A stretch of 64,000 bases of DNA, taken from Sphaerolaimus hirsutus (lineage: Eukaryota; Nematoda; Chromadorea; Monhysterida; Sphaerolaimidae). Shown piece after piece: positions 7,034 through 61,000 of this stretch; within the stretch, counting starts at the first letter, position 1, and the number at the start of each line of letters is the position of its first letter. The translations under genes were made by a program, and so were the position numbers. A model generated the notes under the pieces. It did no database searches. It was not told the origin of the DNA and was given only the letters and a program-made list of their open reading frames with translations. The stretch spans positions 3,345,206 to 3,409,205 of the forward strand of contig OZ038459.1 of NCBI GenBank assembly GCA_964036195.1, written 5' to 3'.

Positions 7034-10000
7034 ATGCGTCTGAAACTGTGGCGTCCGCTGGCGCTGCTGCAGGGGGTCACTTTTTATTTGCACGCTGCTT
7101 TCGCTTGTTACGGCGCCGCCACTTCTAGAGGGATTGTTGGGGGGTTGGCTGGACAGCAGACTGGTTTGTGTTTTTTGGGGGTTGTGGTTTTGAGGTTGGT
7201 GTTTAGTGTTTAGTGCGATTAGCGTTGAAAAAATATTTGGGAGATTTATATTTATCTAAAATATCATCAACATATGATATTTTTTTTCCTAGGTTTTTTT
7301 CAGAGAGGGTTTCAGGTTTGTTTTTTCAGGGTTTTTTCATTTTCTTTTCTTTTGAGAGATTTACTGAGATTACATTTGGGTACTTTTTTCCTGAAAATCA
7401 TCGATTTTCGATGCTAAATGTGATGTTTTTCAAGGAGCTTTTGGTGGTGCATTGTGCTTACAAAGTTCGAAAAAGTGTGATTAAGCTGTGATCAACTCTC
7501 GTTCCCTCAACGGACACCTCATTCCGGTAAACTTAATCACGGTTCAAATGCGTTCAAAGCTGAACAAAAACGTACGATGAAAGATGGGGCGACAAAAACA
7601 TGAATTTTTCCGTCGCTCATTGCATGCAATAAAATCTGCATCTGCATCTGCAATGCATCTGCATCTCCACTCACGAAATTCCCCCCCCCCCTTGCCCAGG
7701 CTCCGTAGGCACCCCCAACCAGCAGCACCTGGGTGCCAGGAACGTGCTGCCCGGCGGCGACCCCAACGCCAACAGCGGCACCGCCCAGACCGGCCTGGGC
7801 AACGTGGCATTGGAGCGACCCCTGGCTGCAACTTCCAAGGGACCTGCGACCAGACAGGAGCACTTGACTTGTTTTGATTTTACCCAGAATTGTAGATGGA
7901 GGAATGTTGCTGGAGGGGTGGATCAGGTGATTTTTAATTGTTTTTATATTTTTCTGGGCGCAGTGCTGCACTTTGTAAAGTGTAAATTCGAGTGGCAAAT
8001 GTCAGGTAAAATGTCAATCAAATGTAAATTTTTTTTACTGAACTTTTGACACTCTTCATGACATTTGTCAAACGTACACGAAATTTTACATGACATTTGA
8101 CACTTTACTACACACTTTACATGGTGCGGCACTGGCACGTGGTGTGCAAAGTTTGACAGGGTTCAGTAAACCCCCTAAACCCCCAACCCCCACCCCTCAG
8201 CTCGACTGGTGGCTGGGCAGGGGCACCGTGGACCCAGTGCTCCTATTAGCGGGCACTGGTGCCGACCAGCCCCCGAGGTCACCATTTGCAATAGCTGCAA
8301 CGAATGTGGCCCAGCAGCCGCAAGCGGCCGCCATTTTGAGCTCGGACCCCATTTTGTGTCAAAAGACCAATGGCGAGATTAGGTTCAAGTGAGTGGGGGG
8401 GGAACTTTTTTCTAGGATGTAGTTTGAGTGGAAAAATTGGGAGTATGTTTTTGTGTGAGTAATGGTTATGGGAAAATGCCATGGCGCTAGCGCCATTGTA
8501 ATGGCGGCGGAGGGCGTCAGCGCCAATGCCACACTGCCCCCCCCTGTGGCGATGAATACTCAACTCTCTTCTGAACTATTGAATTGAACTGTGGAAAATT
8601 TTTGCCCGGTTTTTGTCGGGTATAGGTGTCGGGCACCAGGTTCGGCTTCGGGTTTGAGTATCGGGTTTTAGTTTTCAAAAGTTTTCGGGTTTCAAACATT
8701 TGCGGTATAGGGATTAGTTCACAACCCATAAAAAAACTCAGTTGACTTTTTCTCAACCCACCCTCAGATACTGGACCTCAACCGGTGTCCAATTACGTCT
8801 ATGCCTCAAGGCAGTGTCAAGAGACTTTCCCAATTACGACTATTGCACCAGAATTCCATCCGGGGGCCCAGGACCAGCGTTTGTGAGCATCCCAGGCCCC
8901 ATAAACGAGCCATTTGAGATTTTGCTGCGAGTGGAGAACTTCGTGCTGTTCGATGGCTTGGTGCAGGGCGGCTACGCCATGTTGGACGATATTGAATATT
9001 TTGGAGAGCTTTGCGACGGTTGGTGGTGGGTTTTTTTTTTTTTGGGGGGGGGGTTATTTGAGTCGTGAAGTGAGTGATTGGCGCTGTGCATACTGGTTTA
9101 CTGCCACTACAATGTGTAACCTCATAAGTTAACTTTGAATGGCATTTGAGTTTACTGGAATTAGGTGTTCATATAAATACTACAGTTGACGGAGAGTAAA
9201 AGTAACTCGATTCCAATGAACTCAAATGCTGTCAACGGTGATTTATAAGTTTACTAATTTTGTAAAATTTAATTACAAACTTAAATTTTGCACAACTGGC
9301 TCACGCTAGAAGCATGCCAACGATATTAAAGGCATGCGGCCTTCATAAAAAGACGACAAAATTCATAGGTATCTATTGTAACATTTACGTAAATGTATTA
9401 ACAACATTCGCTTTTTCATTTTTCACAAAAATCGCACGCTTTTATTTTTCATTGGTACGCTTGCAATGTGAGACATAAGTATATAGCAGTGCGTGCAGAC
9501 TGTCGAATTTTTGAATACCTAGTTACTGGGGGGAGTGTAAAACATTAAAAACTCTCCGGAACAGTCGATCATACATTGCTAAATCTAATTCAATCGCTTT
9601 CAATTTCCCTCCAATAACTACTTCCCCCAAAAACACCCCCCACCTAGCAGAAGCGCCCAACCCCCGAGGGCAGATCTCGCCCAGGGCGCCCTCCCCCAAC
9701 GGGATCGACACCAACTCCATCGACGACAGGCAGCCGTCCGGGGGTGGGGGTGGGGCAGGGGGCGGGGGCAGGGGTGCCGTGCAGCTGTCGGATACTTGCG
9801 ACATTTTAGAGTGCGCTTTTTCTCATGGTGGGTTTGGGGTTGTGGGTTTTTGAGGTTGGGTTTATTGTTTTGACTAAGTATGTATGTTTTGGGGAGATTT
9901 TTTGACACTATGAATTTTGACAATTATTTTTTACATTTTTTTTAACATGGGCCAATTCCGCGAGAAGACCAGTAAATCGTATGTTGTATTTAAGTGGTAA

Positions 10001-11991
10001 GTGACAAGTGATAAGTGGTAAGTAAATGATGAATGATTTTACTTGCCACTTATCGCTTGATATCGCTCGCTCCCCTCTCGCATCTTATTTTGAAAACCCA
10101 AGACCCATTTTCAAATCAAATCAAACCACCGCCGGACAGGCGACTGCCGCTCGTGGGTCCGGGCATCAGCGTGGCGGCTGGGCGCAGGCCCCGTGGGCAA
10201 CCCTTTGACGGGGGTGCGCGGCGACGCGTCCCGACTTCCCTACGACCCCGCAGGTGCCAGTCTCAGACCCTGGAAAATGTCCTGGGAAGTGGCAAATGTC
10301 GTGTAAAGTGTCTAAGCTATGGAGAATGTCAAATGTCATGAAAAGTGTCCAAATTTATGGAAAATACTTAGCAAAATGGCAAATGGCATGTTAAGTGTCC
10401 AAGGTTATGGAAAATGTCAGATGTCATGAAAAGTGTGTAAGCTCATGGAAAATGCCCTGGAAAATGGCAAATGTGTTTGCCATTCTCAGACCATTTTCCA
10501 TGACTTCAGACACTTTCCATAACATTGGACATTTTCCACAGCATTTTTCACAACTTTAGACACTTTCCACAACTTTAGACACTTTGCATGACACTTGACA
10601 CTTTCCAGGGCACTTTACAGGGTCTGGGACTGCCCCCAGGACACTACGCATACGCAACGGGGCCAGCCAGACGCGTGCGGATGTCCACGCCCCCGTTTCA
10701 GTTGCCCAGCGATGTCAACTTGATGTTTAGTTATTATAAGGCGAGTAGGGATACGGGATTGAGGCTGTTGGCTAGAAGGAAGGGCGATAATAGATTGCAG
10801 TTGGTGTTCACGTTGGTTTTGGTAGCGGGGTTTTTTTGGGGGGGCGGGGGGGTGATTGTGTTTGTTTTATATTTCTTTTGTGGTTGATGAGCGTAATGTA
10901 AATAGGTATTAAAGATAACGTTGTCATTGATTGTGAGTTCGCATACTGCGATCTGTCAACTCACGTTCCCTGTATAAATTAAAGGACACATTCAAACGAA
11001 CGTACGTGTTAATTCAACTGAATATGATGTCCACAGGCACAGGGTACCTGCATGGTTTATTGTCAGTTGTCAATTGACATTTGAAAGTCAAGTCCAGCAC
11101 GCTGTATAATGTCATGTCAAACGTCAAGTGTCACGGACAGTTGACAATTTCAGTCCAATCCAGAATTCACTCTAGAATTTTCCAACCATCTTCACCCGAA
11201 ATTCAACATTTCGCAGCGCTCCGCAAATTTCGGCGGACGCGCGGCGTTGGTTCCGCGAGGTACGTCAACTGGACGCCGGGGATTATGACGCGGTTAGATT
11301 AATTAATAATATCGTTTTAATTAAATATGTATTTCCTCGAAATACACTCCCCACGAAATACACCCCCCCCCCCTCGAAATACCTCCCCTCAACATAACCA
11401 CTATGAATTTATAACCCCCCTCGAAATACCCCCCCCCCCAATTGAGTGTAGGTAAAGTCCAGGCAATGCAAACACACGTTCAAACAATGGCTTTGTTACG
11501 TTAGGACAGGGTTTATTTATACCATCTACACACCCACATAAGTTTATAGACTCTTACATAAGACAGTTACGCATTATTTAATTTTTCTACATTTTTAATT
11601 TTTATTATTTTACTCACAACAAATACGTACTGCGAGTTCAAAAAATTTCTGGCGAAAAAATAAACTCCCCCTCGAAATACCCCCCTCGTTCAACTTCCCC
11701 CCTCAAAATTTCCACTATGAAAAATTCCCCCGTGGGCGTAATTCGAGGCAATACGGTCCGTAAGTAAATATTTCTCACCCGCCTCACTTGAATATGGAAA
11801 TGCCTTCACTAAAGGCTATCAACTTTTTTGCCGTTCACATTCATTTTCAACGATTCTCATTTCGTCACTCAACAATTTCGACAAATCCCGTTTCGCAGTT
11901 AATTTTCGAAGCGATGGATCTCGGCCCGAACGCGTACGTCGGCATCGACGAACTAATATTGACTGATTTACGGGGGCAGCATTTGTGTTGA
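7034..11991 (+). CDS. Secreted two-MAM-domain protein
   Basis: Exons are 7034-7163, 7700-7926, 8201-8388, 8768-9018, 9651-9827, 10140-10253, 10640-10811, 11217-11259 and 11899-11991 (464 aa, TGA stop). Every intron is GT-AG and every phase agrees. The start (AAAATG) opens a signal peptide, MRLKLWRPLALLQGVTFYLH. After a low-complexity linker comes MAM domain 1 (exons 2-4): CFDFTQNCRWRN, LDWWLGRG, the Cys pair in CQKTNG…LRLCLKAV and GYAMLDDIEYFGELC. A Gly-rich linker leads to MAM domain 2 (exons 5-9): CDILECAFSHGDCRSW, the hydrophobic core, GPNAYVGIDELILTD, and a final Cys. MAM domains are extracellular adhesion or interaction modules; the layout resembles nematode secreted MAM proteins. No membrane segment or GPI signal is seen, so secretion is inferred. 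Intron 6 (10254-10639) is an exact copy of a Harbinger-like MITE, so it looks recently gained; introns 2, 3 and 8 carry other MITEs. Confidence 0.85.
7956..8139. mobile_element. Harbinger-like MITE in intron 2
   Basis: Ends GGGCGCAGTGCTGCACTTTG and ATGGTGCGGCACTGGCACG with the family interior (GTAAAGTGTAAATTCG, TTTTACATGACATTTGACAC). Confidence 0.6.
8475..8710. repeat. GCGCCA foldback piece plus CGGGTATCGGGTT degenerate repeat in intron 3
   Basis: ATGGCGCTAGCGCCAT-type palindromes at about 8480-8535 are followed by GTCGGGTATAGGTGTCGGGCACC-like degenerate units to about 8710. The latter match the interior of the hAT element at 59209-60219. Confidence 0.5.
9120..9490. mobile_element. Two MITE pieces in intron 4
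   Basis: 9126-9275 is a copy of the GCATTTGAGTTTACTGGAAT foldback. 9285-9490 contains CTCACGCTAGAAGCATGCCAA…ACGCTTGCAATGTGAGACATAAG, the family also seen at about 24604-24660, 27255-27480 and 53670-53870. Confidence 0.45.
10254..10636 (+). mobile_element. Introner-like Harbinger MITE forming intron 6 of the MAM gene
   Basis: The element begins GTGCCAGTCTCAGACCCTGG exactly after the exon's CAG and ends GGGTCTGGGACTGCCCC. A second CAG (10637-10639) is followed at once by the next exon. The CAG/CAG pair is the target duplication, the element's first two bases are the donor, and the downstream CAG is the acceptor. Removing 10254-10639 restores an unbroken reading frame (Ala-Gly-His-Tyr). The interior is palindromic GGAAAATGTC/GACATTTTCC arrays. 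Confidence 0.85.
11325..11758. mobile_element. ACCGTATTTCCTCGAAATA-family foldback in intron 8
   Basis: From TATTTCCTCGAAATACACTCCCC to GGCGTAATTCGAGGCAATACGGT, with C-run blocks and CTCGAAATACCCCCC units inside. Confidence 0.65.
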
Positions 11992-13082: not shown

Positions 13083-13494
13083 ACCGTATTTCCTCGAAAT
13101 ACCCCCCGGGGGGTGATTGTTTCAGAGTGGTCCCGAGAGGGGGGGGGGGGGGTTAAACGAGGGGGGGTATTCCGAGGGGGGGTTATCATTTCGCCAGAAA
13201 TTTTTCAAATCCTAGTACAAAATCGTCGTTTGTGATGTACACTGGGGTAGAAAAATGCATCAATAACTGACATGTATAGACTCCTGTAGACTAATAGTAG
13301 TACGTAGATGGTATAAACACTGTTCTAACGTGATCACGACATTGTTTTAACGTGTGTTCTGCACTATGCATTTCGTATTTCGGGGGTATTTCGAGGGGGG
13401 GGGGGTGATTGTTTCATAGTGGTCTCGAGAGAGGGGGCGGTCAAAGGAGGGGGGGCATTTCGAGGGGGGAGGGTATTTCGAGGAAATACGGTAG
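13083..13494. mobile_element. ACCGTATTTCCTCGAAATA-family foldback
   Basis: Starts TACCGTATTTCCTCGAAATACC, ends GGTATTTCGAGGAAATACGGTA, flanked by TA, with long G-runs inside. Confidence 0.75.
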
Positions 13495-15715: not shown

Positions 15716-18700
15716 GTTCTAGCCGTGCTGCGCTCCGCCGACAACTGGGTGCAACTTCGAGTTGACAAATGCGAACCTCCGATGTTGGACGTGGGCTCGA
15801 CCTTGGACGAGGCGCACGAGTTGGCCCAGCTGCATGCAGAGTTGATGCAGAAACTGAGGAATAAACAGGAGAATATTGAGGATTTGCTAGCGCAGGTGCG
15901 ATTGTGGGGGGGGGGTGAAATTTGGATGTTTTTTGTTGAATTTTTTTTTAGAAAAAAATCCAAAGTTGGCCAGGCAGTTGTTGAAGAAACTTTTCCCGAT
16001 AAAATAGTTTCGAATTGAAAAATTCGACAAACATTTTCGAAGTTTCAATAAGTTTAAGGCAAAAAATACTTGTCGAAAGCAGACATTATTGAAAACCCGG
16101 ATGAATCGACTTGAATGTAGTGATGTGAAAAGCGCCAGAACTTTGGCGCTAAGCGCCAAAAGCGCCATGGCGCTTTTCCGACTCCTAGCGCCAAGCGCCG
16201 ATGGCGCCAGAGCCAGAAGCGCCATGGCGCATTTTTGCTTTGGCGCCAAGCGCCAGCGCCAGGCATTTTGTTTCTGGCGCCAGTCGAAAATAGCGCCAAG
16301 CGCCAAAAGCGCCATGGCGCTTTTTCCTTTGGCGCTAGCGCCAGGCGCCAGCACCATGGCGCTTTTACATCACTACTTGAATCATATGCGTCCAAATCGT
16401 TAGAACCAAAATTAAAATCCAAAGATCCGACATCCACAAAACCCTAACGAAAAGTCCAAAAAAGTGCCTTCAAAGTGGTCAAATAACTCAAATTATCCCC
16501 CCACATCAAAAACAGGCCGACCGTCTAGTTCTTGAGCAACAAGAGCCCGACGTGCCCGTGTACGAAGCCATGGCCGCCAGTCTGGGCGGCGCCTGGAAGG
16601 AACTTAACAGGTGACACGCACGCACCCTGGAAAATGCCCTGGAAAATGTCAAGTGGCATGTAAAGTGTCTATAAGTCATGCAAAATGCCCTGGAATGTGG
16701 CAAACGCGTATACAAACTCCTCTGGGATTCGGGCTCTACCTTGAAGAATAAAATGTTTCTGGCGACAAAGTGAACTTCTGGCAGCAGTCGCGCACCCTGT
16801 AAAGTGAACTAGGGGGTATTTCGGGTGGGGTAGGAGCACACTCAGTGCTGGGGGGTATTCACAGGGGTGTGTGTGTGGGGGGGTAATTCAAGGTTATTCA
16901 ACTCTAGGAAATACCCCAAAAACACCCACCACAAAGTGTCAACTCCCCCAGAGCCCTCCACGCGCGCGGCCTCCTCCTGGACACTGCCTCCCAATTCTAC
17001 TCTTGTGTGCGCAAACACGACCAGCTGGTCAGGCGCATGGACCAGGAGTTCAGGATCGGGTCAGAGTACAGCTCGAATCCGGAGATGTTGCAACGGTGGC
17101 TGGCGGATATGAGCGATATGAGGAAAGGTGGGGTTTTGGGGGGTTGGGGGGGGGGGTTAGTTGCAGGTGCCTGTTTTGAGTGTGAATAGTGAGATGAGAG
17201 AAGTGGTAAGTGATCGGTGAAGTGATGAAATGAGTCGAGAGACAAGTAAACAAGTTTCACGTATTTTCGTATAAAAAATTTACTACAAAATTTACTTTGA
17301 AATTCACTTCATCTACAAAATAGTGCCAAGTGCCAGTGACAGGCATTTTGTTCCTGGTGCCATGTGAAACAGTGCCATGGCGCTTTTCCAACCCCCAGCA
17401 TCAAGCAACAAGGACCAATTCTGTGTGGTTTTTTAAAATACCGTATATCCTTGAATAAGACCCCAGGGGCGTTATTATTTCGTCAGAGGTTTTGGAGGGG
17501 GGAGTTATTCAAGGGGGGGTACTATTCAAGGGGGGGAGTTATTTTTTCCTCAGAACTTCCAGGAAAACTTTCACTTTATTCATTGTTTGTATGCATTCCG
17601 TCAACACATCTAATGCAGAAAATGACCAGTTCAACACTAACAAAACAACGTATCCATCCTAAAATTCGTGTTCAATCATCTAAACCTAAAAATATCATAG
17701 GCTAACATTCTTTTGTATTTTTTGTTTCACACACCAAACCCCATTCGATTGCATTTGATGAATCAGCCCAGACATAGCTTTATTTTTCTGTTTGTCTCGT
17801 TTTCATTTTCGTGTGTTGCTCATCGATCGTTTTACCCAGAGGGGGGACTTATTCAAGAGGGGGGAGTTATTCAAGGGGGGGCGTTATTTTTTCCTCACCT
17901 GGCCAACAGGGGGGTGTTATTCAAGGGGGGGTATTATTCAAGGGGGGGGGTCTTATTCAAGGATATAAGGTATCAGAAATAACGCATTTATATTTTTCCA
18001 GGGTTTTTTTCCAGAGAGAATTAAGTATACTCGGCAGACATCACACTCAGTATGAAAACTTACCATAACCCATCTGAATAAAAAACCAAAAATTACCGCA
18101 AATCCTCGAATAAGACCCCCCCTTGAATAACTCCCCCCCTTGAATAAGTCCCCCCTGCTGGCGGGGTGAGGAAAAAATAACTCCCCCCCTTGAATAACTC
18201 CCCCCTCTCAAAAACCCCTCCCTATCATGAAAAGGATACAATGCAAAACTATAAAAGTATAGTAGCCTATGACAGCGACAGCAGATACATAATGTGTATG
18301 CAGTGTATACACATTGTTATGTTGTTATTGTACGGTGAAATACCTTAATTAAACGAGTTTACATACTGCATCCATACAATGAATTAAGTCCACGTTTCCT
18401 GAGGAAATAATAACTCCCCCCCTCGAATAACTCCCCCCTTGAATAACTCCCCCCTCCAAAACGTCTGACGAAAAAATAACTCCCCTGGGGTCTTATTCGA
18501 GGATTCAGGGTATACTGTTTTTTACATAAAAAATATTTAGTTTTTACTATAGGAAAATTAATTACGAAATTTATCACAACATTTTATTCATTAGAGTATG
18601 GTCAGTTTTCATACTAAGTGTGCTGTCCACCGAGTATGCCTATATGGTTTTTTGGGGAGATTTACCTAATTATATATTTTTGCAAATAATCCATTTTCCA

Positions 18701-21700
18701 AAAATCACACATCCCCCCAAGACCTAATCAACACCACCGCCGCTGCAATGGACTACGGCCAGGCGTCCATCAGCAAGCTCCGCGAGCTCGGCCACATGGT
18801 CGACAACGAAGACCGAGAAATGGACTCCCTGCACGCGTGCGAGCGGGTCGAGCAGACCATGCTCAGACTGGTGTCAATCCTAGACCCTGTGAAGTGCCCT
18901 GTAAAATGTCAAGTGTCACGCAAAGTGTCAAAATGCTCTGTAAAATGTCAAGTGTCACGCAAAGTGTCAAAAGTCACGCAAAATGCCCCGCAAAATGGCA
19001 AACGTACGTTTGCCATTTTGCAGGGCATTTTACGTGACTTTTGACACTTTGCATGACACTTGACATTTTACAGGGCGTTTTGACACTTTGCATGACACTT
19101 ACAGGACGTTTTACAGGGTCTGGGACTGCCCCCTAGTCGACCAATGGACGGCCTTGGACGCGTCGTGGGCGGAGTCTGCGGAGAAGTGGCAACATGGAGC
19201 CCTGGCGGCTCAGTGGAGACAGGTTTTGGATAGGATTGAACAGTGGCTTAGGTGCGTGGGGTTGGGGGGGGGGGGGTGAAGGCTATTTAAGTGTCAAGTG
19301 ACAGGTATTTGGATATAGACTGATGTTACCACCACATTCTGGTGACACGAAAAAATACCGTGCCTTGATTTGAGCAAAAGCGATGTACTGAGATTCATCA
19401 GTCAGATGGCATACCGTAATGCTGGATACAGTGATTGGGCAATGAAAAGCCAGATTACCGTATTTCCTCGAAATACCCCCTTCGAAATACCCCCCCCCCC
19501 TCGTTTCACCCCCCCTCAAAATTTCCATTCTGAAAAAATAAAGCATCAGGGGGTAATTCGAGGAAATACGGTAAGTAAGTTAAGTAACCTTTGAAAGGTG
19601 CATCAGGGAAAATAGAGGTGAAATATTCTCACCATTTCGTCAATCCAAAAAAAGCGGTATTCCACAAAAAACCTCCGGTTTCCAATCTTTCCAGTTTCCA
19701 GGTTTATTTTCTCAAAAATATTTTTTTTCCGAAAATCACACCCATTTTTCTGCAACTCCAACCCAAACACCTGCGCCAGGTCCAACGAGCAGTTCCTGAC
19801 CGCCAACGAGCTGGGCGACGGCGCGTACGCCGCTGAACGGCTGCTGCGCAACTGCGACACGCTGCTCGCCGAGCTGTCCGAGCAGGTGCCACTCCCGGAC
19901 CCTGTACAGTGCCGGCTTAAATGTCTAACGTCGTGCAAAGTGTATAGAGCCATGGGAAATGTCCTGCAAAATGGCAAATGCAAGTTTCCCATTTTACAGG
20001 GCATTTTAGATGGGACTTTTGGTGCCACACACATACACACACACTGGTTGTCAACTGGTTTCGGTGTCAACTCGATTTTCAAAAAAATTCAATTTGTCCA
20101 ATAAAGTTCGCATGACAACTTTCAAGTGCACATGACAATAGTGATTCCTTTTCGACATTGCTTGCACCATGTGCAAGCGAAAATTGTCCAGCGACATAAA
20201 CTAAAATCGAGTAGAATCCAAAACCAGTTGGCATCCGATGTGCGTGGCGGCTCTGACCCTTTACATGCCATTAAACATTGTCCAGGACACTTTACAGTGT
20301 CCGGGACTGCCCCCAAGAGCGACACTTTACAACGTGCCGCCCGCGGCATAGATCAGATGCCCAGCGGCGCTGAGAAGGGCGATTTACAGACGCGCTGTGC
20401 GCAACTCATGCAAAGGTTGGACAAGGTGCTCAGGGGGATGAACGAAAGGAAGCCTTTGTTGGAGCAGTCGATCGCGTTTTATAAGAGCGCTGAGGCGGTG
20501 CGTTTTTTGGGGTTGGGATTTGGAGGGTTTTGTTGTAATATTTATTTTTATTGTGATTGTGAAGGTTTGTGACGTTCTTGGAAGGGAAATTATGGAATTG
20601 TGTTATCAATTTTCAAATTGATTTTGAATCTATAGATAAAATGAATATGGGCTCGGCGCCGTTTAATTTTAATGTCAAGTGACAAGTAAACTCATAAGTG
20701 ACGAGTAACCTTGTACACGAGATACCTGCCACTTATAAGTGTACTTGTCAGTTGTTGCCACTTCACTGCCATTTTCCTACTCACATTATGTCGCTGCACA
20801 CACTAGTTCAGCAATAAAATTTTCAATCTTTAGTAAACTCATACATCAGTCTTGAACGCATTTGAGTTTGCCGCGTGGGTCATTTTTACGTTCCATCAAC
20901 TACTGTGATCAACAAACACCTCAATTACAGTACACTAAAATGCCATTCTGACTTTCTGAGTGTGTATTAATGAGTTGACCAAATTTTTTGTTGACTGCCT
21001 GTAATGTGCGCAGCGAAATACTCAGTGCAAATTTTGAGGGGTCGTTCGAGTGGGGGGGGGGGTAATTCAAGGGGTGTCGTACCTCGAGGAAATACGGTAT
21101 TATCCCCGCAGGCCCTAACCGCCCTACACGCCCTCCACGGCGAGTCTCAAGGGGTCGACGGGAGTAGGGCGCACAATTTGTCGGGCCGCGCGGCGCACCA
21201 CGCCGAGCCGGTCGTGCGGCACGGCAACGAATTGGTCCACAGGGCCGGGGGAAGGCAGGCGCATGGCACTAGGGCGCTCGTGGAGAAGGTGGGTTGGGGG
21301 GGGGGGGTTGGGGGTTTTGAGGGGGTAGAGTTGGGGGGCTTTGGGGGTTTTGAGGGGGTAGAGTTGGGGGGCTTTGGGGGTTTTGAGGGGGTAGAGTTGG
21401 GTGGGGGGGTTGGGGGTTTTGAGGGGGTAGGATTAGGGGTTTTAAGGCGCCACGTAGCTTTGGGGAATGCATGGAGTTTTTCGCACGCGGGAATGCATGC
21501 GCTCGTTTCTTGTTGCTCACGCAGAATTATGCGTTTCCAGCAAGTGGAGAATGCAATATTACACTTTGTCAAGCGACGAGGCAAAGCGGCGAAAATCAAA
21601 ATTAGGTAATTTTTTTCAAGATGCCCGTCGATAGTGAAATACCACAATTTTTTTCTGGAGAGAATACCACATCACAAATATTTTTCTCGATCTTTGACAG

Positions 21701-24700: not shown

Positions 24701-27700
24701 AATAACTACCCCTCTGGAAGAAAAGAATACAATACAAAAATGCAAAACAATATTAGCCTACCACAGCGACAGCAGATACATTATGTGTATGCAGTGTTAT
24801 ACACATCTTTTCGTTGTTGGACAGTGAAGTACCTCAATTACAGAGTTGACAGACAGCATTTATCCAATGAATGAAGTCTATGTTTTCTGAGGAAAAATAA
24901 GTCCCCCTCGAATAACTCCCCCTTTGAATAAATCCCCCCTCAAAAACGTCTGACGAAAAAATAAGACCACTGGGGTCTTATTCGAGGATGACGGTAAGTG
25001 TAAAAATGGGTTTGCCATTTGCAGAGGGTTTGTCATCATTGATTATGACTCAACAATAGTGCACAAAGCACAAATGGCTCATGCAAATGTAGCATAAACA
25101 AAACTCATCCATTGTAAATTTTATCGCCATTTTTAACTCGACCATATTGCCATCAAATCAAATCCATGCATCCAAAAGCACCACCTTGAATAGTGCCCCC
25201 ACTTTAAAGGTAACAATAGAACTGGACTGGATGGAAACCACGCTGCAAAGGCGAGATCCCCGCGCCCAGAGGGAAATTGAAAGTCGATGGGTCACTTTGG
25301 AGCAATTTGTGCAAAAACTTCGACAAACTGCGGAACACACTACGTCTGACATTAGTAAAGGTGAGGTTTTATCGAATATAAAAGTGTGCTGAGCAGGGTT
25401 GGCAAAATCTCAGAAAAGAATAAAAATAAAATGGAAAATTGAAGAATAAAATAAAATAAAATGGAAAATTTCAAAATATAAAAAAAATTGTATAAAAATT
25501 CGAATTTTTGTAAAAAATTTGTAAAATTATTTACAAATTCATATTTTTGTAAAAATTGTATAAAAATTCATATTTTTTGTAAAATTTTTTTCTGTTGTTT
25601 ATAGTTCAACCTGTTCAACCTAGAGCTGGGGCAGTCCCAAGCCATGTAAAGTGTCAAAATGTCATATGAAATGAAATGGAAAGTGTCAATTTTCATGAAA
25701 ATGTTAAGTAAAGTGTCAATTGTCATGACAAATATAAATTAAAGTGGAAACTGTAAAACAAATTGTATCCAAATTTTATCTTTTGTATCCAAATCTTGTT
25801 GTTTTTGTAACCACATCTTATGTGAACATTTGGATACAAAAACATAAGATTTGGATACCAAATTATAAGGGTTGGATACCAAAACATAAGATTCAGATAC
25901 ACAATTTACACTATGCACGACATTTGTCATGACATTTATACTTTGCTTGACATTTGAGATGCCAATTGACTCTTTACTACATTTGTCATGACAATTGACA
26001 CTTTGCATGATGTTTTGCAAATGCGCCCAGCACACTCCAGTAATCCTTCTACTGAAAATGCAAACCATTCTTATCGAAAATTGTAACTTAACACTTGCAA
26101 CTAGCTGACAATACCTACTGCATGCAACTTTTGCAAAGTAATGGAAAAATTTGTCACACGTTTTTCATGTTTAGGTCTAATTATCACATTGTTCTGACCT
26201 TGCATGCAAGATTCTGATTTTTTGTAAAATTTCTGTAAAATTTTTGTAAAATGGTCCATTTTATTATTTTTTTTGTATTTTGGAATAAAATAAAATGAAA
26301 CAAGAATAAAATAAAAATAAAATACGTTTTTATACAATTTTTATACAATTTGTATACAAATGATTTTTATAAAACCAACCCTGGTGCTGAGTATGAAAAA
26401 TACTTACCTAGTTGTTTGTTTTTTTCCACCACATTTTGTCGGTGCAGCCGGTCCATTTTCAGCATTTATTTTTTATGCCTCTGCGTATGTTGTAGTTTAT
26501 GCGCTTCAAAAATATGTGGAGTGTTGTGCCGATTCTGAGTTATAAAAGGTCACTGCACGAGAATATTATTCACCGTTTCTCATAAGCTTTTTTGACTACT
26601 TTACACGGTTCTAAAAAGAATTTTCGGTACACTTCGAAAGATGTACTTGTGAACATTTTATATTTTAGGTAATGTGAATTCCTTTTTGTACAAAACGCTA
26701 AAATATTGTCTGGTATTTAGTTCATAGCTCCGTATCGATTAGAGTATAAGAACAGTGGTGCTGAATAATAAATATACTTACACTATCCGACTCTTGAAAA
26801 AATACCTACTCAAAACTTTGTTCCTTTCATATAAATACCGTTACTCAACATTACCGACAAACAAGTTCAAAAAAACACCATTCAAAAATCCTTTTCGATA
26901 ACAAACACTCTCAAAAATTCTCCGACCCCGACATAGTGATGTAAAAATCGCAACGGCACTTTTCTGCACCTCAGCGCCATAGTCAAAAAGGCGCCAAACG
27001 CCATGGCGCTTTCTGCTCTGGCGCTGGCCCCTCGCCAGCGCCATGGCGCTTTTAAATGTCTACCAAAAAACCTTGCAGCCGGCGAGGAAGGCGACACAGC
27101 GGCGGGAAATCACGCCCGACAATCTACCGGTGCCGCATTGGAGCGGGCCGAGCGATTGCGGGAACAAGTCAGACAGTGGAAACAGTCATTGGGACAGATC
27201 GACCAGTTGAATAAGACTATTGAAGAGGTGCGTGCTGGGTATTTACTCCAGCAACTTTACACCTTGCACACGTGGTTCCTCCTGGAAGCGTGCCAACGAT
27301 GCTTAACCCATGCCACATTCACAAAAAGTTCAACATATTCATTTCTGTTATAACATGAACCATCATCGTGTTCATGGCAACGATTTTTTCATTTTTTCAC
27401 TAAAATCACATGCTTGAATTATCATTGGCACACTTCCAACATGAGACATAAATCAGTGCGAGTGCAGAGTATCAAGTCCGCCGGGTATATTTGTGTGGAG
27501 CCTGATTGAACAAGTGGCTCAAACTAATGCAGTTCAAAACTTTCAGCTTTAAATTCCTGCAAATACATTTTTGGACGAATCTATGTATTGCATTGATTGA
27601 AGACTCTATTTGATTGCCGTTTTTAGCCAAATTCAGTGCCGAAAGTGAAATTCAACCTAAATATAGGTAATATGACTAATGCAGATGTGCCTACAAAAAT

Positions 27701-30700
27701 AAACATTGACACACGGTGCATATTGATCCATTTCCAATCTCACACAAAAACAACCAGCATTTTCTGACCTTAAGCAATTCAAATTCAAGTACCTCTGCAA
27801 ATATTCTGATAACTTCCCTCAGATGGCAGTGTCGCACCCTGTAATATTTATGCCAACGGTCACCCAATGTGACAAAAAGGAAAATAATTTCATTACTATA
27901 CTTTAGACATTTTGCACAACATTTGACAAATCTGTACGACATTTTTGATGACATTTAACACATTGCGTGATACTTTTATAGGGTGCGGGACTGGCCCCTC
28001 CCCTGGTAAATACTGGTAGTAACTTTTCCATCAACTGAATCCCCATTGATTATTCTAGGTAGATTCCCGCGCGTAGTGATGGTAAGCGCCATGGTGCTGG
28101 CGCCTGACGCCAGCGCCAAAGGAAAAAGCGCCATGGCGCTTTTGGCGCTTGGCGCCAAAAATCCTGGCGCTTTTACCATCACTACCCGCGACGCGACTAT
28201 CAATACCTCCACACAGGTGGAATTCTGGATCCGCGAAGTAACCGACGTTGTAACGTCCACCGAGCGACGTTTGCCAACGTTGTCGAGCAGCGAGGAGGCC
28301 AGTCGTTTGGTGCAAACGTTGGATCCTTTCGACAGGCAGAAGGATACCCAATTGAGCAAATTGGACACTGTACATAGGCAGGCTACCGCTATGAAGTGTA
28401 CGTTGGGTCGGTGTTTGCGGGTGTTTGCATGTTGCTATGCACACTGGAATTGTCAACTGGTTTGAGTGTCAATTCTGATTTTAGTTGACTAGTCGCAGGA
28501 CGATTATCAGGTGCACATGCGGTGATGTTGGAAAATAATTTATAGTAGCAAATGCATTTGAACACCAGTTTGCAACAGATCAATTAAGGTCTGAATCAAC
28601 AATTCGGCGCAGTTCACCTCCGATACCATCGTCAAATATTTAGTGTGTGTAAAGCCTTTGGGTGAGAAAAGTACTTTTGTTTCCTAAAATGTGTGCGTGA
28701 AAAAATTATCACCGCGAAAAATGAGCTTTGTCCAAAATAATCTGGGGTCAATTCTGTAAGTATACTTGGCGGACCTCACACTTTGTATGAAAACCTACCA
28801 TAACCCATCTGAATAAGGAAGCGAAATTTTTACAGTTTTTCGTCATTACGTTTTGTTTTACTATGCAATAATTCATTTTATCACGAAATACAAGATTTAT
28901 CACAAGATTTTATTCATTAAATTATGGTAGGATTCTGCGCAAACTTTGTGATCCGCCGAGTTTACCCACTCACAAAATATGCCTCAACCCTCTCAGCATT
29001 CAATTTCACACCCCAAACACCCCCTACCCCTCAAACAACCCCCCCCCCAACCCCCCAGTCGAAGACACCGAGCACAAAGTGGAGCAAGTCCGCCGCAGCC
29101 ACCAAATTATAATCGACCGTCTAGTAGAGATCCGAATGCACCTGACCTCCCTGGTGCCAATCCCAAACCCTGTAAAATGCGCTGTAAAATGTCAAATGTC
29201 ACGCAAAGTGTCAAAAGTCACGTAAAATGCCCTGCAAAATGGCAACTCGGTTGCCATTTTGCAGGGCATTTTTCGTGACTTTTGACACTTTGCATGAGAT
29301 TTGACATTTTACAGGGCATTTTTCAGGGTCTGAGACTGCCCCCTGGTGCACACGATGCGCGAAAAAGAGCGACGCGCGCGCCTCCAGCCGCCGAAAGTGA
29401 CCAGGCAGCTCCAAGATGTCACTGTAGATGAAGGACACAGGGCTACGTTGACGTGCAATATTGAATCGGACCCCCCTGCCAGTTTGCAGTGGTTCAAGGA
29501 TGGGCTGGGCGTGTTGCAGGATTATAGGACCACCTTTCAGAATGGTTGGTGAATGTGGAGTTTTTAAATATGATAGGGGGTATTTCGAGGGTGGTTGGGT
29601 CTATTCAAGGGGGGGTAATTCGAGGAAATACGGTAAATTACTACCGTATTTCCTCGAAATACCCCCCATCGAAATACCCCCCCCCCTCAAAATGGGCACT
29701 ATGGAATTGTGGTCCGGGAAATGCATAACAGACGTTCAAAACACGTACTGTGTTACATTAGAACATCGTTTATACCATCTACATCCTTATATAAGGCTGG
29801 AAAAACTTAAAAATGGTGGTTATTGTTGCATTTTTCACGTTTCTCTCTCAAAATTCTCACTCTGAAACAATAAACCCCCTGGGGGTATTTCGAGGATATA
29901 CGGTATTTTATTTCCCAGGTACCGCTACGCTGCACATCGACGAGGCGTATCCTCAAGATGGGGCTGTTTTCACGTGCCGCGCGCAAAACGAAGTGGGCAC
30001 CGCGGAAACTAGGTGCAGGCTGACCGTTAGAGCCAAGCCCAGGGGACACAGGTGTGACAAAATTTTGATGTTAACGCAGCAGGAATTTGAGGTTTCATAT
30101 CATTTTAAGTGTTCATTGGTGAAAATCGGCTGAGAAATGGCCGAGAAATTGAGTTTTGAAGTGGCATGCATTCACCCACGGATTCCGGATTATAAATACG
30201 TCTGCACGCGAATTACATAATTCGGGCAATGGACGTATTTTTCCGCACATGCCATTGACCCCGCAAAAATCCAATATGGCGAACGCGAAAGTCCCATAAC
30301 TGGACACACCGATAATCGATGTCAAAAGGCCTAACAGACGAACTGTCGTTGGGGAAGCACTAGTACAGTGAGTGAAGCATCAGGAATCATTAGCATGACG
30401 ACACTTCACAACGCTTCACCGCGCAACCACACACCCATCTTTTACTGTGTATACGACAGCGACATTACACCTTACAATGGAATCTACCATATCCCATCTG
30501 AATAAGAGAACAAACATGAAAAAATTGCATTATATTTATCAAAGCAATTTCCAATTCAATGATAAAAAAATTTTTTTATATTTTTTATTCAGATGGTATA
30601 TGGTATATTTCGTTGTAAGGTGTAATGTCACTGCAGTATACCCTTCAAATTAGTCCACTCAAAAAATTGCCAATCCAATAACTTTTCTCCAGACCCTCTA

Positions 30701-33700: not shown

Positions 33701-36700
33701 AGACGTCCCTGGTTGTTGTGGCCGGCGGTGCGCTAGATTCGCTCGTGTGCCGTGTCACTGCAGGGGGGCGGTCCCGCACTTTGGAGAGTGTGGGGTGAAG
33801 TGTCGAGTGTTGTGTGGATTTGGAAAGTGTCGAGTGAAATGTCGATGAGAATGTATTTTACATATCTTTTTAATTTTTGTTGACACTTTACTTTACATTT
33901 GACACTTTACTTTACATTTGACACTTTACTTTACATTTGACACTTTACTTTACATTTGACACACCCTGTAAAGTGTCATGTAAAGTCTCTCAAGTGTCAT
34001 AAAAAGATACCAAATGTCATGCAAAATGTGAAAAGTTCAGTATTTTATAACTGTTTTCACTTTATATTTTGATTGACATTTTGCATGACACTTTACTTGA
34101 CACTTTACGGGGTGTGGGACTGCCACCAGATGAGCACTTGTGCTGGCTGAGCGACAATAGGCCGCCCAGTCGCACTAGCGCTGGTCTGGCTTTTTGTGTT
34201 GTTGTGGAAATGTGTTTACTTTACTGGAAAGATACGTATAGCGCGTGCGCACCAGTTTAAATACTGGTGAAATTTTAAAAATTTGGTAAACATTTTATTT
34301 CCCTTTGTTTTCTGCACGCGGTAAAATTAAAATTTTATTTAGTGATTAAATTTTAAATACTTTACATTTACATATACTTTGAAAAGTTTGGTACTTTTAA
34401 CAACTCTGGCTTTTTGCGCCGGGTTTTTTTTGTCCTGTTCCCTTTGTCATAGTCACAGACAGTCACGGAAAAATGCGGCCGTAAACTCGAGGGACGCCAT
34501 TCGGTATTTTTCATAAAGCCACTTAGAAGTTTACTTGTCACTCACACACTACTTGTTACTGTTTTATTGCAACATTTCCTAAAACTGTCAGATTCCCTGG
34601 TGATTTGATTCGCGAGGAATTGTAAACATTACGTTACTATTATCTTTCCATGATTTTCTCTTTCGCGTTCCCCTCCAGCGACCTGGTATTGTGCCCACAC
34701 CAAAAAAATTGTCTTCATGTTGGCAGAGTGCCAATCATAACTCGCACATGTTTTGCTTTATTTAAAGCGCAGAATCTGATATGATCATACGTTTACCAAG
34801 TCATTTTTGCCATTCTACAAGAGTTTATCGTCAGCTGGCACTCTGCCAAACATTCAGACACGAACAATCGCACTGAATACACAAAGAGTGCACACAAACA
34901 CCCCCCCCCCCCCGCAGAGACCCTTCACGTGCGCCCTGCATCGGGCCAACGAGTGAGCCCTGCGCCGGCGGGCAACCCGCCCCACTTCAGCACCACCCTC
35001 GTGTCCGTGGTCAGCCAGATTGGTGGTGAGGCTGTGCTCAAGGGAATTGTTCAGGGTCTGTTGTGGGGGGGGGGGGGGATTTTTGGGTGGATACCTGGGT
35101 TTGGGGGGCCCTGGTTATTTTGTGTTCTGCCATTTTTTCTGGATACAGGCAGCGCAGTACCTACCTACCGTATTTCCTCGAAATACCCCCGGGGGTGGTT
35201 GTTTCAGAGTGATAATTTTGAGGGGGTATTTCGAGGACATACGGTAGCTCATTTTTTCTTAAACCTTAGCGTAAAGAAATTGGGATTGGGTAAATCCTCG
35301 AATAGGTCCCCGGGTGAGTTTTTTCAGAAACTTTTTACTGGGGAAGGGGAGTAATTCGAGGATTACTACGTAGATTTTTGGAACGCTACATATGGGCGGC
35401 CACACCACACCCCATCCCAACATCCCAGGCACCCCCCGCCCGGAAATCACGTGGATGAAAGACGGCCGGCCATTCGACCCCTCATCGGCTGGCGCCCGCA
35501 GCAGTTATTCGGCCGACGGGACCGTGTCGTTGACGTTCACCAACGCCCAGCAGCACCACTCGGGCAAGTACACGTGCAGCGCTAAGAACGCCGCTGGTGT
35601 CGCCACGAGCAGCGCCCAGGTGGGTGGGCGGGGCTTGTGGGGTGTTGTGTGTTGATACTGAATGGATGTTTTGGATAGACGGGCGTGTGACCTTGTGTCA
35701 ATGGTATTTACTGGGCAGATTACTTCGTTTTGAAAAAATGACGATACGCAAGATGTAATGTAAATACTAAATTGACGAAAGGATAGTGAAAAAAATGTAG
35801 GATAAATTTGTGAGAGTAAAAATTTGTCTGCTTGGAAAACTTGGTTGCATTCAAAATGGGAGATTTTATGTAAAGTTCCTCAAAATTTGCTGATGGAATA
35901 ATTATCCCCTGGGTAGTGATGTAAAAAGCGCCAGACTTTTGGCGCCAAGCGCCAAAAGCGCCATGGCGCTTTTGGCATGCGAGCGCCAAGCGCCAATGGC
36001 GCCACAGCAAAATAGCGCCAAGCGCCAAAAGCGCCATGGCGCTTTTCTAGACCATGGCGCCAAGCGCCAATGGCGCCACGGGATGATGGCGCCAAGCGCC
36101 AATAGCGCCAGCGCCAAAAAAATTTGCTGCATTAAGTGCAGCGATGCAAATGCAGTGCTATCTATTTGTTTGTCAACTGGTTCCCATCCCAATTCAAAGC
36201 TTGCTTGACAAGTAACACTTTCCAGTATTGTATACACACATACCATATTTCCTCGAAATACCCCCCTTCAATTAACCCCCCCCCCTCGAAATACACCCCG
36301 CCTGGAACAAGGTAGATCATGTATCCAATGAACATGATACATTTATAGCTGCGAATTTACATCGCAGCTATACATGGCATTGTTTATGGAACGAACTATG
36401 GTAATATGAACAAAATATATCCTATTTGGTTATCTAATTACGTTTTGGGTACAAAAAACTATACTTTACTATGACCCTTCATAAAAATTCCCCCCGAACA
36501 AGCACCCCTCGAAACGGGTCTGCACTTGTACGCACAAACGCCCGGCACGCACAAACGCCTGGCACGCACAAAATGAAAACTCGGTACGCACAAACGCCCG
36601 GTACGCACAAAACTGTAGCTGTGTGTGTGTGTGCAAGTTGATAATAATGTCAACTGCCAATTTATGTAGTTAGTTAGCATGTGCTTTTTTGGTTTCCATA

Positions 36701-39853: not shown

Positions 39854-40050
39854 GGTGACGTTCCCGCACCCTATAAAGTGTAACCTCAAGTGTCAAATAT
39901 CATGTGAAATGTTATACAAATTTGTCAATTGACATGCAAAGTGTCAACCATTCAGTAATGAAGCACTTTTTATTTTGATTGACATTTACATGACACTTGA
40001 CAGTTTGACATCTAACTTCACTCTTTACAGGGTGCGGGACTGACTGCCCC
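39854..40050. mobile_element. Harbinger-like MITE between two convergent genes
   Basis: Ends GGTGACGTTCCCGCACCCTATAAAG and TTTACAGGGTGCGGGACTGACTGCCCC. It fills much of the spacer between the spectrin/Ig gene and the tubulin stop codon. On the minus strand it supplies a possible AATAAA near 39968. Confidence 0.7.
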
Positions 40051-40104: not shown

Positions 40105-47002
<6,898 letters not shown>

Positions 47003-48167: not shown

Positions 48168-49052
48168 CAGAGTTGTTAAAAGGTACGTACGTTTACTCGA
48201 AAAATACGCGTACGCGCGTACGCGGTAAATACGTTTACATATACTTTTTAAAAAAATACCGTACGCACTCGTACGCGTACATTTTCAAAGCATACGCGTA
48301 CATAAAATGTATTTCAGAAAATTCAATGTGGGGGATATTTATAAAGTGACCACAGTGCTATGTATTTACAGACGTGGTTCCGTTGAATTTAAAAGATACG
48401 CGGGGGTAGCGCGCTTTAAAAAAAAACGCAACCAAATCGAAATGGCTGCGGAGACAATCCAAGTGGAAACGAGTCGCGAGAGCGACGATGGAATGGATGA
48501 TTCATCCGGCACCGCTGAAATCGGTTGCCCCATCCCAAACTCCATCCCAAACAGCCGTTGAAAGGTTGTTTAGTGCCGCTGCACTGGTTTGTGTTGGGAA
48601 AAGGTTGCACCTCGCTCCCGAAACATTACAGAAGGAGCTTTTCATTCGCTTCAATTATAAGAAGTGTTTCTAGTGATTTACCAGATTTGGATGAGTTAGG
48701 TTATATTTTTGTTGCCGCTATTCTTGCTATATTTATCTCCTACAATAAATAGACCCTGAAAACTATGTTTTCTATCATTTTCTTAAACAAAAACATATGT
48801 TGTGCTGTACACATATGAAAAAGTGCCCACTTGACACCCACTTGAAATAATATTGACGCCTCACGAAAGGTGTAGCGTCAGGAATGACGAAAAGTGGTCG
48901 TCTCTACACTCGCAAGAAAAGTACCCAAATTTACGCGTACGTACGAGTAAAAAAAAAGTATTTTACGTTTTCGATACTTTGTGGTGAGTAAAAAAAAAAT
49001 ACTTACGTTTACATATACTTTTGAAAAAAGTTCAGTAATTCTAACAACTCTG
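48168..49052 (+). mobile_element. hAT element copy A with a transposase C-terminal remnant
   Basis: 885 bases, ends CAGAGTTGTTAAAAGG and TTCTAACAACTCTG, perfect 8-bp duplication GAGCAGTG (48160-48167 and 49053-49060). A frame at 48488-48673 reads VERLFSAAALVCVGKRLHL…LQKELFIRF, the conserved hAT dimerisation region. The BED finger and catalytic domain are absent, so the copy is non-autonomous. It appears identical to copy B at 53877-54761. Confidence 0.92.
48488..48673 (+). pseudogene. hAT transposase C-terminal (dimerisation) fragment, copy A
   Basis: About 40 codons match the hAT C-terminal dimerisation domain (AVERLFSAA…LAPETLQKELFIRFNYKK then stop). The upstream residues are non-homologous and there is no catalytic core, so it is a relic carried in the MITE. 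Confidence 0.75.
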
Positions 49053-53876: not shown

Positions 53877-54761
53877 CAGAGTTGTTAAAAGGTACGTACG
53901 TTTACTCGAAAAATACGCGTACGCGCGTACGCGGTAAATACGTTTACATATACTTTTTAAAAAAATACCGTACGCACTCGTACGCGTACATTTTCAAAGC
54001 ATACGCGTACATAAAATGTATTTCAGAAAATTCAATGTGGGGGATATTTATAAAGTGACCACAGTGCTATGTATTTACAGACGTGGTTCCGTTGAATTTA
54101 AAAGATACGCGGGGGTAGCGCGCTTTAAAAAAAAACGCAACCAAATCGAAATGGCTGCGGAGACAATCCAAGTGGAAACGAGTCGCGAGAGCGACGATGG
54201 AATGGATGATTCATCCGGCACCGCTGAAATCGGTTGCCCCATCCCAAACTCCATCCCAAACAGCCGTTGAAAGGTTGTTTAGTGCCGCTGCACTGGTTTG
54301 TGTTGGGAAAAGGTTGCACCTCGCTCCCGAAACATTACAGAAGGAGCTTTTCATTCGCTTCAATTATAAGAAGTGTTTCTAGTGATTTACCAGATTTGGA
54401 TGAGTTAGGTTATATTTTTGTTGCCGCTATTCTTGCTATATTTATCTCCTACAATAAATAGACCCTGAAAACTATGTTTTCTATCATTTTCTTAAACAAA
54501 AACATATGTTGTGCTGTACACATATGAAAAAGTGCCCACTTGACACCCACTTGAAATAATATTGACGCCTCACGAAAGGTGTAGCGTCAGGAATGACGAA
54601 AAGTGGTCGTCTCTACACTCGCAAGAAAAGTACCCAAATTTACGCGTACGTACGAGTAAAAAAAAAGTATTTTACGTTTTCGATACTTTGTGGTGAGTAA
54701 AAAAAAAATACTTACGTTTACATATACTTTTGAAAAAAGTTCAGTAATTCTAACAACTCTG
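53877..54761 (+). mobile_element. hAT element copy B, identical to copy A
   Basis: 885 bases, same ends as copy A, perfect 8-bp duplication TATAACGG (53869-53876 and 54762-54769). It contains the same transposase C-terminal remnant at 54197-54382. I see no difference from copy A by eye. Confidence 0.92.
54197..54382 (+). pseudogene. hAT transposase C-terminal fragment, copy B
   Basis: Identical relic frame to that of copy A. No catalytic part. Confidence 0.75.
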
Positions 54762-58076: not shown

Positions 58077-61000
58077 CTACTTAACCTCAAGCACCTCAAC
58101 CTCATCAACCTTCTCCTCAACCTCCCCCTCCATTTTCTCAACCTTCTCCTGTACAACCTCCTTTACCTCCTCAGTTTTCTCTTCCAAAACCTCCTTTACC
58201 TCCTCCTTTTTCTCTTCCAAAGCCTCCTTAACCTCTTCCTTTTTCTCTTCAACAGCCTCCTTAACCTCTTCCTTTTTCTCTTCTAAAGCCTCCTTAACCT
58301 CTTCCTTTTTCTCTTCAACAGCCTCCTTAACCTCCTCTTTTTTCTCCTGCACAGCCTCCTCAACCTCCTGCTTAATGGGCGGAGTTTTGAGTGACTTTTT
58401 AGACCTCTTACTGATCTCGCTGCCGGCTAAGGACTGGGTATCAGTGCCGCTCTGCCGCTTGGGTGTTTCGTCTGAATCTGGGGGCAATCCCGAGCTCTGT
58501 CAAGTGTCAAGTCAAAAGTGTCAAGTGTAGATTTTATTACTGAAATTTTGACACTGTGTATGAAATAACGGCAATGTGTCAAAATTCACATTTTTGACAC
58601 TGCAGGACCGGCATAACTTTACATGACATTTGACAAATTTGTATGACACCTTGCATTACAATTGACAAATTTGTATGACACTGCGTGACAATCGACAAAT
58701 TTGTATGACACAGCATGACGATTGACAAATTTGCAGGACACTTTGACACTTTGCATAACAATAGAACAAATTTTAATGACACTTTGCATGAAAGTAAACA
58801 CTCGCGTGACGCTCTACATGGCACTTGACAGTCAACTTGACACTTGACAAGGCTCGGCACCGGCACCTGGCTCAGCTGCGGCCGCACTCGCACTCGCAGC
58901 CCCATTGACCGCAGTGGCAGCATCACCGTCGTTCATGGGCTTGCTGGCGCCGTTGTCCTTGGGGATAAACAGGGCCCCGTCCACGGCGGACACCACGTTG
59001 GGGAAGATCGATTCCACCCCCGCGTCGCTGTCCACCTGGGGGGGGGTTGGGGGGTTGGGTGGGGGGTTGGGTGGGGGGTTGGATAGGGGGGGGGGGTTGG
59101 ATGGGGGTGGGGTTTTTTTTTTTTTTGGGGGGGGGGGAATGGATAGAACAGTGATAGAACACTTTGCATTGAAAGCGGCCGTGATCACTTGAGTAATGAA
59201 CTGAACATTAGGGTTGGGAATTTCAAAATGTTCGGGTTCAGGTATCGAGTATCGGGTCCTAAAAATTTCGGGTCGGGTATCGGGTATCGGTTCCAAAAAT
59301 CTCGCGGGTATTGGGTTCAGGTTCGGGTATTGAGGTCGGGTATCGGGTCGGGATTTCAGGTCAAAATGTCGGGTATCAGGTAATCGAATTGTCGGGTATC
59401 GTGTAATAGAATTGTCGGGTATCGGGTAATAAATTATGGGTATTGGGTGATAAAATCATCTGGTATTGGAATGAACAAGAAAAATACAGCATGGTGTAGT
59501 GTATCTATCACAAGGTGTATAACTAAGTGCAAATACACATGGAGATGCAGCAGTATTTCTAAAAAACTTGTCTTGCTCAAGAAAAAAGCACGGCCATTGA
59601 ATTGTGGTATAAAACATAGATACAGTTGTTGTGGGATACCAGGGTGGCTGAGGCTCCTAAAAATAGTGAAACATATTAACATTCATTTTGGTGAATTCAG
59701 ATTGGCCCACAGTGTTATCTCAACATGCTTGGGTAATAACTGCTGACTAACCCAGTCAGACTGTCTAACTAACTGAACAAGTGCAAATCAACACACTTAG
59801 AAAAGAAAACTGGGATCAAGTGCACCCAGATATCTGGCAGCCATTTTGGCTAATGGAGAGGCAGCTATCTGAATTGCTTTCAATTGAATCAAATTTTTCA
59901 AATGTGAATGAAACCATGCAGTACAGAATAAAATCAAATCCGAATTAATTGAAACAAACCAATTAGAAGTGTCTAAACTACAACTGCCCCAAACAACTGG
60001 AAGTTGTATTCACAATGCTTCCAAACTGCTTGAAAGATTGAACTGTGGGAAATTTTTGCGGGTATTTTTGGGTATTGAGTGCAGGTTCGGGTATTGAGGT
60101 CGGGTATCGGGTTCGGGTTCGGGTAGAAGAGTCGGGTTCGGGTATCGGGTTTCGGTTCCAAAAAGTGTGCCGGTATCGGGTTCGGGTTCGGGTCGGGTCG
60201 GGTCGGGTTCCCAACCCTACTGAACATGTTAATTATTCGACCATGTGCATTGTTTGCATACGTAACATGCATTGTTTTGCTATCGTGAAATTCAGCGCAT
60301 GCTCCTACAGAAAATATCACAATTTATTTTGCCAAATAGAGCGATTTTTACTGCGCTTTTGCGCGACGTGCAAGTTGTCAATGAATGTTTTTCAAATTAC
60401 TTTTGACATTTTGCATGACATTTGACACTTTACAGGGTGCGGGGTCCATGCTAAACTTCAACGCAAAGTGTGCGGTCCGTAAAATATAGCGAAGCTACTA
60501 AGAAGTTGCTGGGAACATTTTTTATAGAATAGAGAGAAGGGTGAAGAAAAAATTTAGGCAAATTGAAATATTTTTGCAAACGTACATTCCATACAACAAG
60601 AATCGTTGCCAGGCCGTGAAGTGAAAAAGTGATTCAAGTGAAAAAATAATGGCAGCATGGAAAGGGCAATGGGGTGTAGGATGTAATTAAGCTTTATCAG
60701 GAGGGGCCACTCCGAGACCCTGTAATATGTAAATTGGCGTTCAAAAAGTCAAATGACTGGTAAGAAATAAAGTTCGACATATTACAGGGCAATTTACTTG
60801 ACTTTAGCATGGCATGGCATCTTTGACAGTTTTCAGAGAATCTTTCATAATTTTAGACACTTTACATGACATAAATATTTTACATTTTACATGACTTTAG
60901 TCACTTTGCATGACATTTTACATTTCACAGTATCTGGAAGTGGATCAAGGCTGTAGTCAATTATTACCCATTGAAAACACACCACCATTCCACCATATTC

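Follow-up and report, generated by a model that had tools for sequence, protein, structure and literature searches.

Introners have been reported in 175 of 3,325 genomes, and many of the families concerned carry TIRs or target duplications (Gozashti et al. 2022, PNAS, PMC9860276). As described in that paper, some introner cases involve a gain or loss of codons, and among animals and land plants introners are placed in two groups only, both of them animals, with copepods being named. For example, the legend to its Fig. 2C describes introners of Chrysochromulina sp. that bring their own 5′ splice site and rely on the insertion site for the 3′ one. The term “Harbinger” is absent from the main text of PMC9860276. 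In Fritillaria borealis, non-canonical introns have been tied to introner transposons with weak splice sites (PMC13326754, citing Henriet et al. 2019).

A second relevant system is NuwaI, a transposon group of the PHIS superfamily and kin to PIF/Harbinger, which duplicates a CWG target and for which 16 surveyed animal genomes were positive (PMC4482050, 2015). As described there, NuwaI TIRs are 12–61 bp long and usually start with GGG, and the autonomous partner possesses ORFs for a DDE transposase and a Myb/SANT protein. In the literature searched, which mostly excludes subscription papers, no report of a NuwaI introner was found, and work linking introners with Harbinger concerned fungi only.

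The locus considered here lies in a 64-kb stretch of DNA, the whole of which was analysed and is referred to below as the window. A near-palindromic MITE of 383 bp occupies positions 10254-10636 on the plus strand, with termini GTGCCAGTC...GACTGCCCC (in longer form, GTGCCAGTCTCAGACC...GGTCTGGGACTGCCCC), and is flanked by CAG on either side. As read from the sequence, these triplets are the two copies of a target duplication, with the 5′ copy (10251..10253, +) on the exon side and the 3′ copy (10637..10639, +) giving the acceptor AG. The element plus one CAG (10254-10639) reads GT...AG and constitutes a putative phase 1 intron, with borders (marked by slashes) CAG/GTGCCA...CCCCCAG/GAC. Its removal unites two open frames, ...GDASRLPYDPA/GHYAYATG.... 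The upstream coding exon (10140..10253, +) has a codon score of P = 0.013 versus random windows, and the downstream coding exon (10640..10800, +; 3′ limit approximate) one of P = 0.017 over 150 nt, with a weak coding signal over its first 96 nt (score 0.9 in a 96-nt, best-of-six-frames test). All of this confirms the original prediction with regard to the MITE, the CAG duplication, and the GT-AG borders. Its proposal that the element gives the donor and the duplicated CAG the acceptor is likewise supported.

RNA of the element plus CAG is predicted to fold into one long hairpin at -186.2 kcal/mol (z -15.2; mean of shuffled controls, -97.15 kcal/mol, n=100), with four unpaired bases at one terminus and seven at the opposite one. 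The protein encoded at 10254 gave no Pfam match and no convincing PDB match. A MAM domain, suggested by the pattern of the gene at 8.7-10.8 kb, was rejected, as Pfam returned no MAM even at E ≤ 10; matches of this gene in PDB were weak only, the best being plasminogen (E = 0.18).

Removal of an element together with its duplication restores the frame after any insertion into an ORF, and frame restoration alone is therefore no proof of splicing. The same observation would automatically be made if these were ordinary, exon-disrupting MITEs in which a TIR rich in G and the CWG target happened to yield GT and AG, the genes concerned being damaged, polymorphic, or pseudogenes. We regard such disruption as unlikely. 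Stronger evidence for introns comes from a CAAG acceptor at 19886, from the decayed yet GT-AG copies at 16611 and 58866, and from a uniform sense orientation, each of which is presented below.

Family termini are present in the window beyond chance. For instance, GTGCCANTC occurs nine times versus 1.83 expected in 64 kb, and GACTGCCCCCAG, with up to two mismatches, 18 times versus 2.42 expected. A terminus matrix, trained on copies of the window itself, yielded 56 sites above 8 bits, versus 2–5 per shuffled window (10 shuffles). From sites of at least 20 bits, about 24 elements were grouped by hand. Both ends could be placed for 17 of the 24, some second ends being lower-scoring or set by eye, and these paired elements range from 110 to 428 bp. 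The family is thereby one of short, TIR-bounded, multicopy sequences, that is, of MITEs. Most members have asymmetric ends (GTG.../GGGG...), and one GT end plus one GG end is found in 12 of the 17 pairs, six of them non-exonic. Because of this asymmetry, inside exons and out, the GT donor end is a property of the family. Searches with one exact 23-base terminus gave no matches in either viral_contigs or genome_contigs, and Rfam gave no match.

A perfect CWG duplication flanks five of the 17 pairs (10254, 16611, 29154, 39855, and 58866, with the qualification that the right end of 16611 was set from its acceptor), in support of the MITE anatomy and CWG duplication originally described. Two further pairs show the duplication with a one-base slip, as judged by eye (33765 and 41850), six are one base off (5517, 7957, 12791, 18871, 19886, and 61830), and four have no clear duplication (1452, 27823, 42405, and 60704). 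The target rule holds beyond coding sequence, as in the non-exonic member at 39855..40050 (+), which has a perfect CTG duplication. PIF/Harbinger elements proper duplicate TWA, and this class was rejected, as the clear duplications of the window are CAG or CTG, the CWG set of NuwaI. With respect to the earlier assignment to PIF/Harbinger on the basis of TWA or CWG, the CWG part stands and fits NuwaI as described in PMC4482050, while the TWA part does not.

One member, at 33765-34126, lies antisense to an Ig gene, with a flank score in the coding range on the left (21.0) and in the non-coding range on the right (-3.6). It may sit just past the end of an exon, or it may be a seventh insertion that damages an exon, and it is entered in the counts as non-exonic.

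Other repeats also occur in the window. Two 885-bp elements, at 48168-49052 and 53877-54761, are 100% identical. Their inverted ends read CAGAGTTGTTA, and 8-bp duplications (GAGCAGTG and TATAACGG) flank them without mismatch. This pair, which we take to be hAT-type, looks recently mobile from its sequence. A GCGCCATGGCGCTTTT-rich repeat family with recurring AKSAMALLALGA-like reading frames is located at 16133-16363, 26949-27050, 28067-28170, 35927-36115, and 37537-37596. In addition, the plus strand contains 15 occurrences of GGGGGTATTTC and 11 of GAAATACCCCC, with sites at 13382, 14142, 16812, 22784, 29576, 35222, and 61538, among others; the site at 16812 falls within the 16611 intron. Finally, a minus-strand reading frame for beta-tubulin is interrupted by 200 N at 45051-45250, which represent a gap or masking.

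Six elements interrupt coding sequence (10254, 16611, 18871, 19886, 29154, and 58866). Among the 16 elements with both flanks scored (96 nt, best of six frames), these are the only ones in which both flanks exceed zero. Codon scores reach P ≤ 0.017 for each of their 12 flanks (0.0024 for the right flank of 16611). In all six, the GT end lies upstream in the sense of the gene, an arrangement expected by chance in 1 of 64 cases, and this uniformity argues against coincidental disruption. So does the open, coding-like state of the flanks, considering that the copies at CAG look old by the identity of their arms (0.60-0.79). Every one of the four copies at sense CAG (10254, 16611, 19886, and 58866) gives a putative in-frame GT-AG intron. 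It is these four of the six exonic copies that show what characterizes introners, namely, related sequences that each cover an intron over its full length.

The MITE copy at 19886-20313 (+) together with CAAG forms a putative GT...AAG intron in phase 0 (19886..20317), with borders CAG/GTGCCA...CCCCCAAG/AGC. The duplicate having become CAAG, only splicing at the AG keeps the frame, and excision of the element plus three bases would not. Joined in this way, the product gives a Spectrin match that covers residues 2-84 and crosses the join at 34/35 (E = 1.2e-4; 22.9 bits, under the curated cut-off of 29.9), and either half alone gave no Spectrin match at E ≤ 10. On the minus strand, the copy at 58481-58866 plus CAG constitutes a putative GT-AG intron in phase 1 (58478..58866), with borders CAG/GTGCCG...CCCCCAG/ATT. 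Its downstream flank scores 4.6 in the 96-nt, best-of-six test, in which 10% of random stretches exceed 5.4.

The exonic copy at 16611-16951 (+) is additional to the five loci of the original prediction. This decayed member follows an exonic CAG, runs GTGACACGC...CAACTCCCCCAG and then A, and has the best-scoring in-frame GT-AG pair at its borders, CAG/GTGACA...CCCCCAG/AGC. Both of its ends are decayed and another element has landed within it, a second family terminus being nested in the intron at 16781, yet GT, AG, and frame are kept. The GT-AG product reads ...AWKELNRALHARGLLLDTASQFY... and gave no Pfam match. Retention of GT-AG and frame, both here and at 19886 with its CAAG, is not what disrupted exons would lead one to expect.

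The remaining two exonic copies are located at sense CTG. One of them, at 18871..19132 (+), has CTG on its left and CTA on its right, with no in-frame GT-AG at its borders. Exact removal (CTG^GTC) would imply an intron with GT...TA ends, and it restores a DUF7799 domain in which residues 1-69 fall on profile positions 41-109 at 74.1 bits; protein and profile lengths are equal, and the ORF beyond is intact. By comparison, GT-AG splicing (CTG^TCG) shifts the frame and yields a product with a score of 59.7 bits; with the in-frame pair that scores best, 192 nt of the element would be retained. A TE-internal splice pair was also considered and rejected, its product scoring 59.0 versus 74.1 bits for exact removal. 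If one G were absent from the assembly at this point, the border would be a canonical CTAG/GTC. Barring that, 18871 has no way out as mild as that of the other copy, at 29154..29342 (+), which has a perfect CTG duplication. Exact removal of the latter implies GT...TG ends, and the nearest in-frame AGs lie 24 and 42 nt past the second CTG, within the exon. Both precede the I-set domain, which, after joining, starts at residue 48 of the protein, and by this reading 29154 could be spliced with a loss of 8 or 14 codons.

The original prediction counted no fewer than four further introns with shared termini, at 18871, 19886, 29154, and 58866. Related termini were indeed found on all four copies, and 19886 and 58866 read GT...AG in frame. 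The part that was not supported concerns 18871 and 29154, which had been taken for GT-AG introns of the same design; both are at CTG and are devoid of an in-frame AG at the border. The lack of a usable border AG in the two CTG copies is also a point in favor of plain exon disruption.

Alternatively, all copies, those at CTG included, might be excised precisely under the guidance of the hairpin, leaving GT...TG or GT...TA ends at CTG. We consider this very unlikely. It would account for the 18871 domain scores and intact ORF, and the hairpins of the CTG copies are strong (-186.6 kcal/mol for 18871 and -127.0 kcal/mol for 29154). Also in keeping with it is the exonic CAG:CTG ratio of 4:2, set against 155:107 sense-strand triplets available in the coding intervals. 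As these ratios are close, the counts alone show no filter. Opposed to it are the ordinary introns of the window, which have GT at 11 donors and AG at 16 acceptors but were selected as such, and the arms of the CTG copies, which are the most intact among the six exonic copies (0.85 for 18871 and 0.89 for 29154), as if older ones had been purged. The single G possibly missing at 18871 would moreover render that case canonical.

It is hardly probable at all that the MITEs instead landed at the exon edge of pre-existing introns and replaced their sequence. Other members do reside in non-coding parts of genes; for example, the element at 42405..42783 (-), with one GT and one GG end, is located upstream of a beta-tubulin exon, inside a larger intron. 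At 10254 and 58866, however, the intron is made up entirely of the element and a single CAG, with the duplication straddling it, and at 19886 there is one extra base only. Removal of the element at 18871 likewise joins a domain match of equal protein and profile lengths.

Splice-site strength was estimated with donor and acceptor matrices entered by hand. By these, GTGCCA is a weak donor (-0.2 versus 8.6 for the best), which is in line with exon disruption. Ranked among in-frame pairs, the border pair was first at 16611, second at 58866, sixth at 10254, and outside the top eight at 19886. For the most part, the ordinary introns of the window have GTG as their first bases, and many of them close with a run of C followed by CAG; the ends of the MITEs resemble them for that reason. 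Ordinary introns tend to open with runs of G and to finish with runs of C, as in GTGGGGTTTTGGGGGG...CCCCCCCCCCAACCCCCCAG. Five or more G in a row were found in the first 60 nt at 6 of 11 ordinary donors versus a background of 8.1%, and five or more C in a row in the last 60 nt at 10 of 16 ordinary acceptors versus 7.9%. Examples include donors at 17128, 19252, and 21289, and acceptors at 29058, 33574, 44792 (-), and 59036 (-). These sites were picked by eye and are all GT or AG, since GT and AG were sought; donors near 9068, 10827, and 28396, and acceptors near 9643, 18712, and 44075, were left out as doubtful. The ends of ordinary introns could pair in RNA. There is a slim chance that ordinary introns and MITEs alike are held together by their ends in this way, with the hairpin relaxing the need for AG and the MITE being excised from mRNA at CAG and CTG.

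With regard to age, measured as the identity between the first and last 90 bases of an element, the CAG copies have values of 0.79 (10254), 0.60 (16611), 0.74 (19886), and 0.72 (58866). Compared with the CTG values above, this hints that CTG copies are young and CAG copies older (n=6). Such a pattern would be expected if selection tolerates only sense/CAG insertions for long. The family had also been called active, a description not borne out by own-arm identities of 60-89% in the six exonic copies. Coding intervals were set by hand and total 6,123 bp, with 15.6% of CWG sites being coding. Against this background, the six exonic copies of 24 are not a significant excess (P = 0.16). A preference for exons is unproven, and depletion from exons is absent. 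An exonic share that is not above expectation is compatible with disruption, although one that is not below it would be odd for disruptive insertions.

Taken together, it is quite probable, judging from sequence, that a non-autonomous NuwaI-type MITE acts as an introner here, its TIR serving as donor and the duplicated CAG as acceptor. The element would be transposed by a NuwaI transposase, insert at CWG, and duplicate the three bases. Its upstream TIR starts with GTG, a putative donor, in place of the usual GGG, and its downstream end, ...GACTGCCCC, supplies a short C-rich tract ahead of the duplicated triplet. When the target is a sense CAG and the GTG end lies upstream, the element plus one CAG would amount to a full GT...AG intron of the U2 type, whose excision would restore the mRNA exactly. 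The strong hairpin would set both splice sites side by side and may thereby help splicing. Insertions at sense CTG, with no in-frame AG at the border, are likely young. They may be mis-spliced, spliced at an AG deeper in the exon at the cost of some codons, or in the process of being lost, presumably with selection acting against them.

Introners are a possible cause of bursts of intron gain. In this family, the transposon class, the target rule, and the origin of the splice sites can all be read from sequence. Copies of seemingly different age exist side by side with built-in controls (sense CAG versus sense CTG, and sense versus antisense), and which insertions become introns can be counted within one genome. 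The matches in the window (Ig, Spectrin, DUF7799, tubulin, and adenylate kinase) in our judgement fit animal genes.

As in NuwaI, the family has a CWG duplication and an animal host, and the GG end of most pairs may correspond to a GGG-type TIR. It differs in that the upstream TIR is mostly GTG, not GGG, and it is known here from MITEs alone, within the window. Intron formation by NuwaI is not among what PMC4482050 describes in its account of the element. The family resembles that of Fritillaria borealis in its introner transposons, weak splice sites, and link to introns that break the GT-AG rule, as summarized in PMC13326754. Unlike in that species, the ordinary introns listed here are GT-AG, and only the two putative CTG cases deviate. 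As an introner-like family in an animal, it compares with the animal introners of Gozashti et al. (2022). A close counterpart in that paper, to judge from its figure legend, is Chrysochromulina, in which the element likewise brings the donor, the acceptor is drawn from the site of insertion, and the target is duplicated. Those introners have duplications of 4 bp and show no sign of TIRs, whereas the present family has 3-bp CWG duplications, clear TIRs, a long hairpin, and animal-like genes as its hosts.
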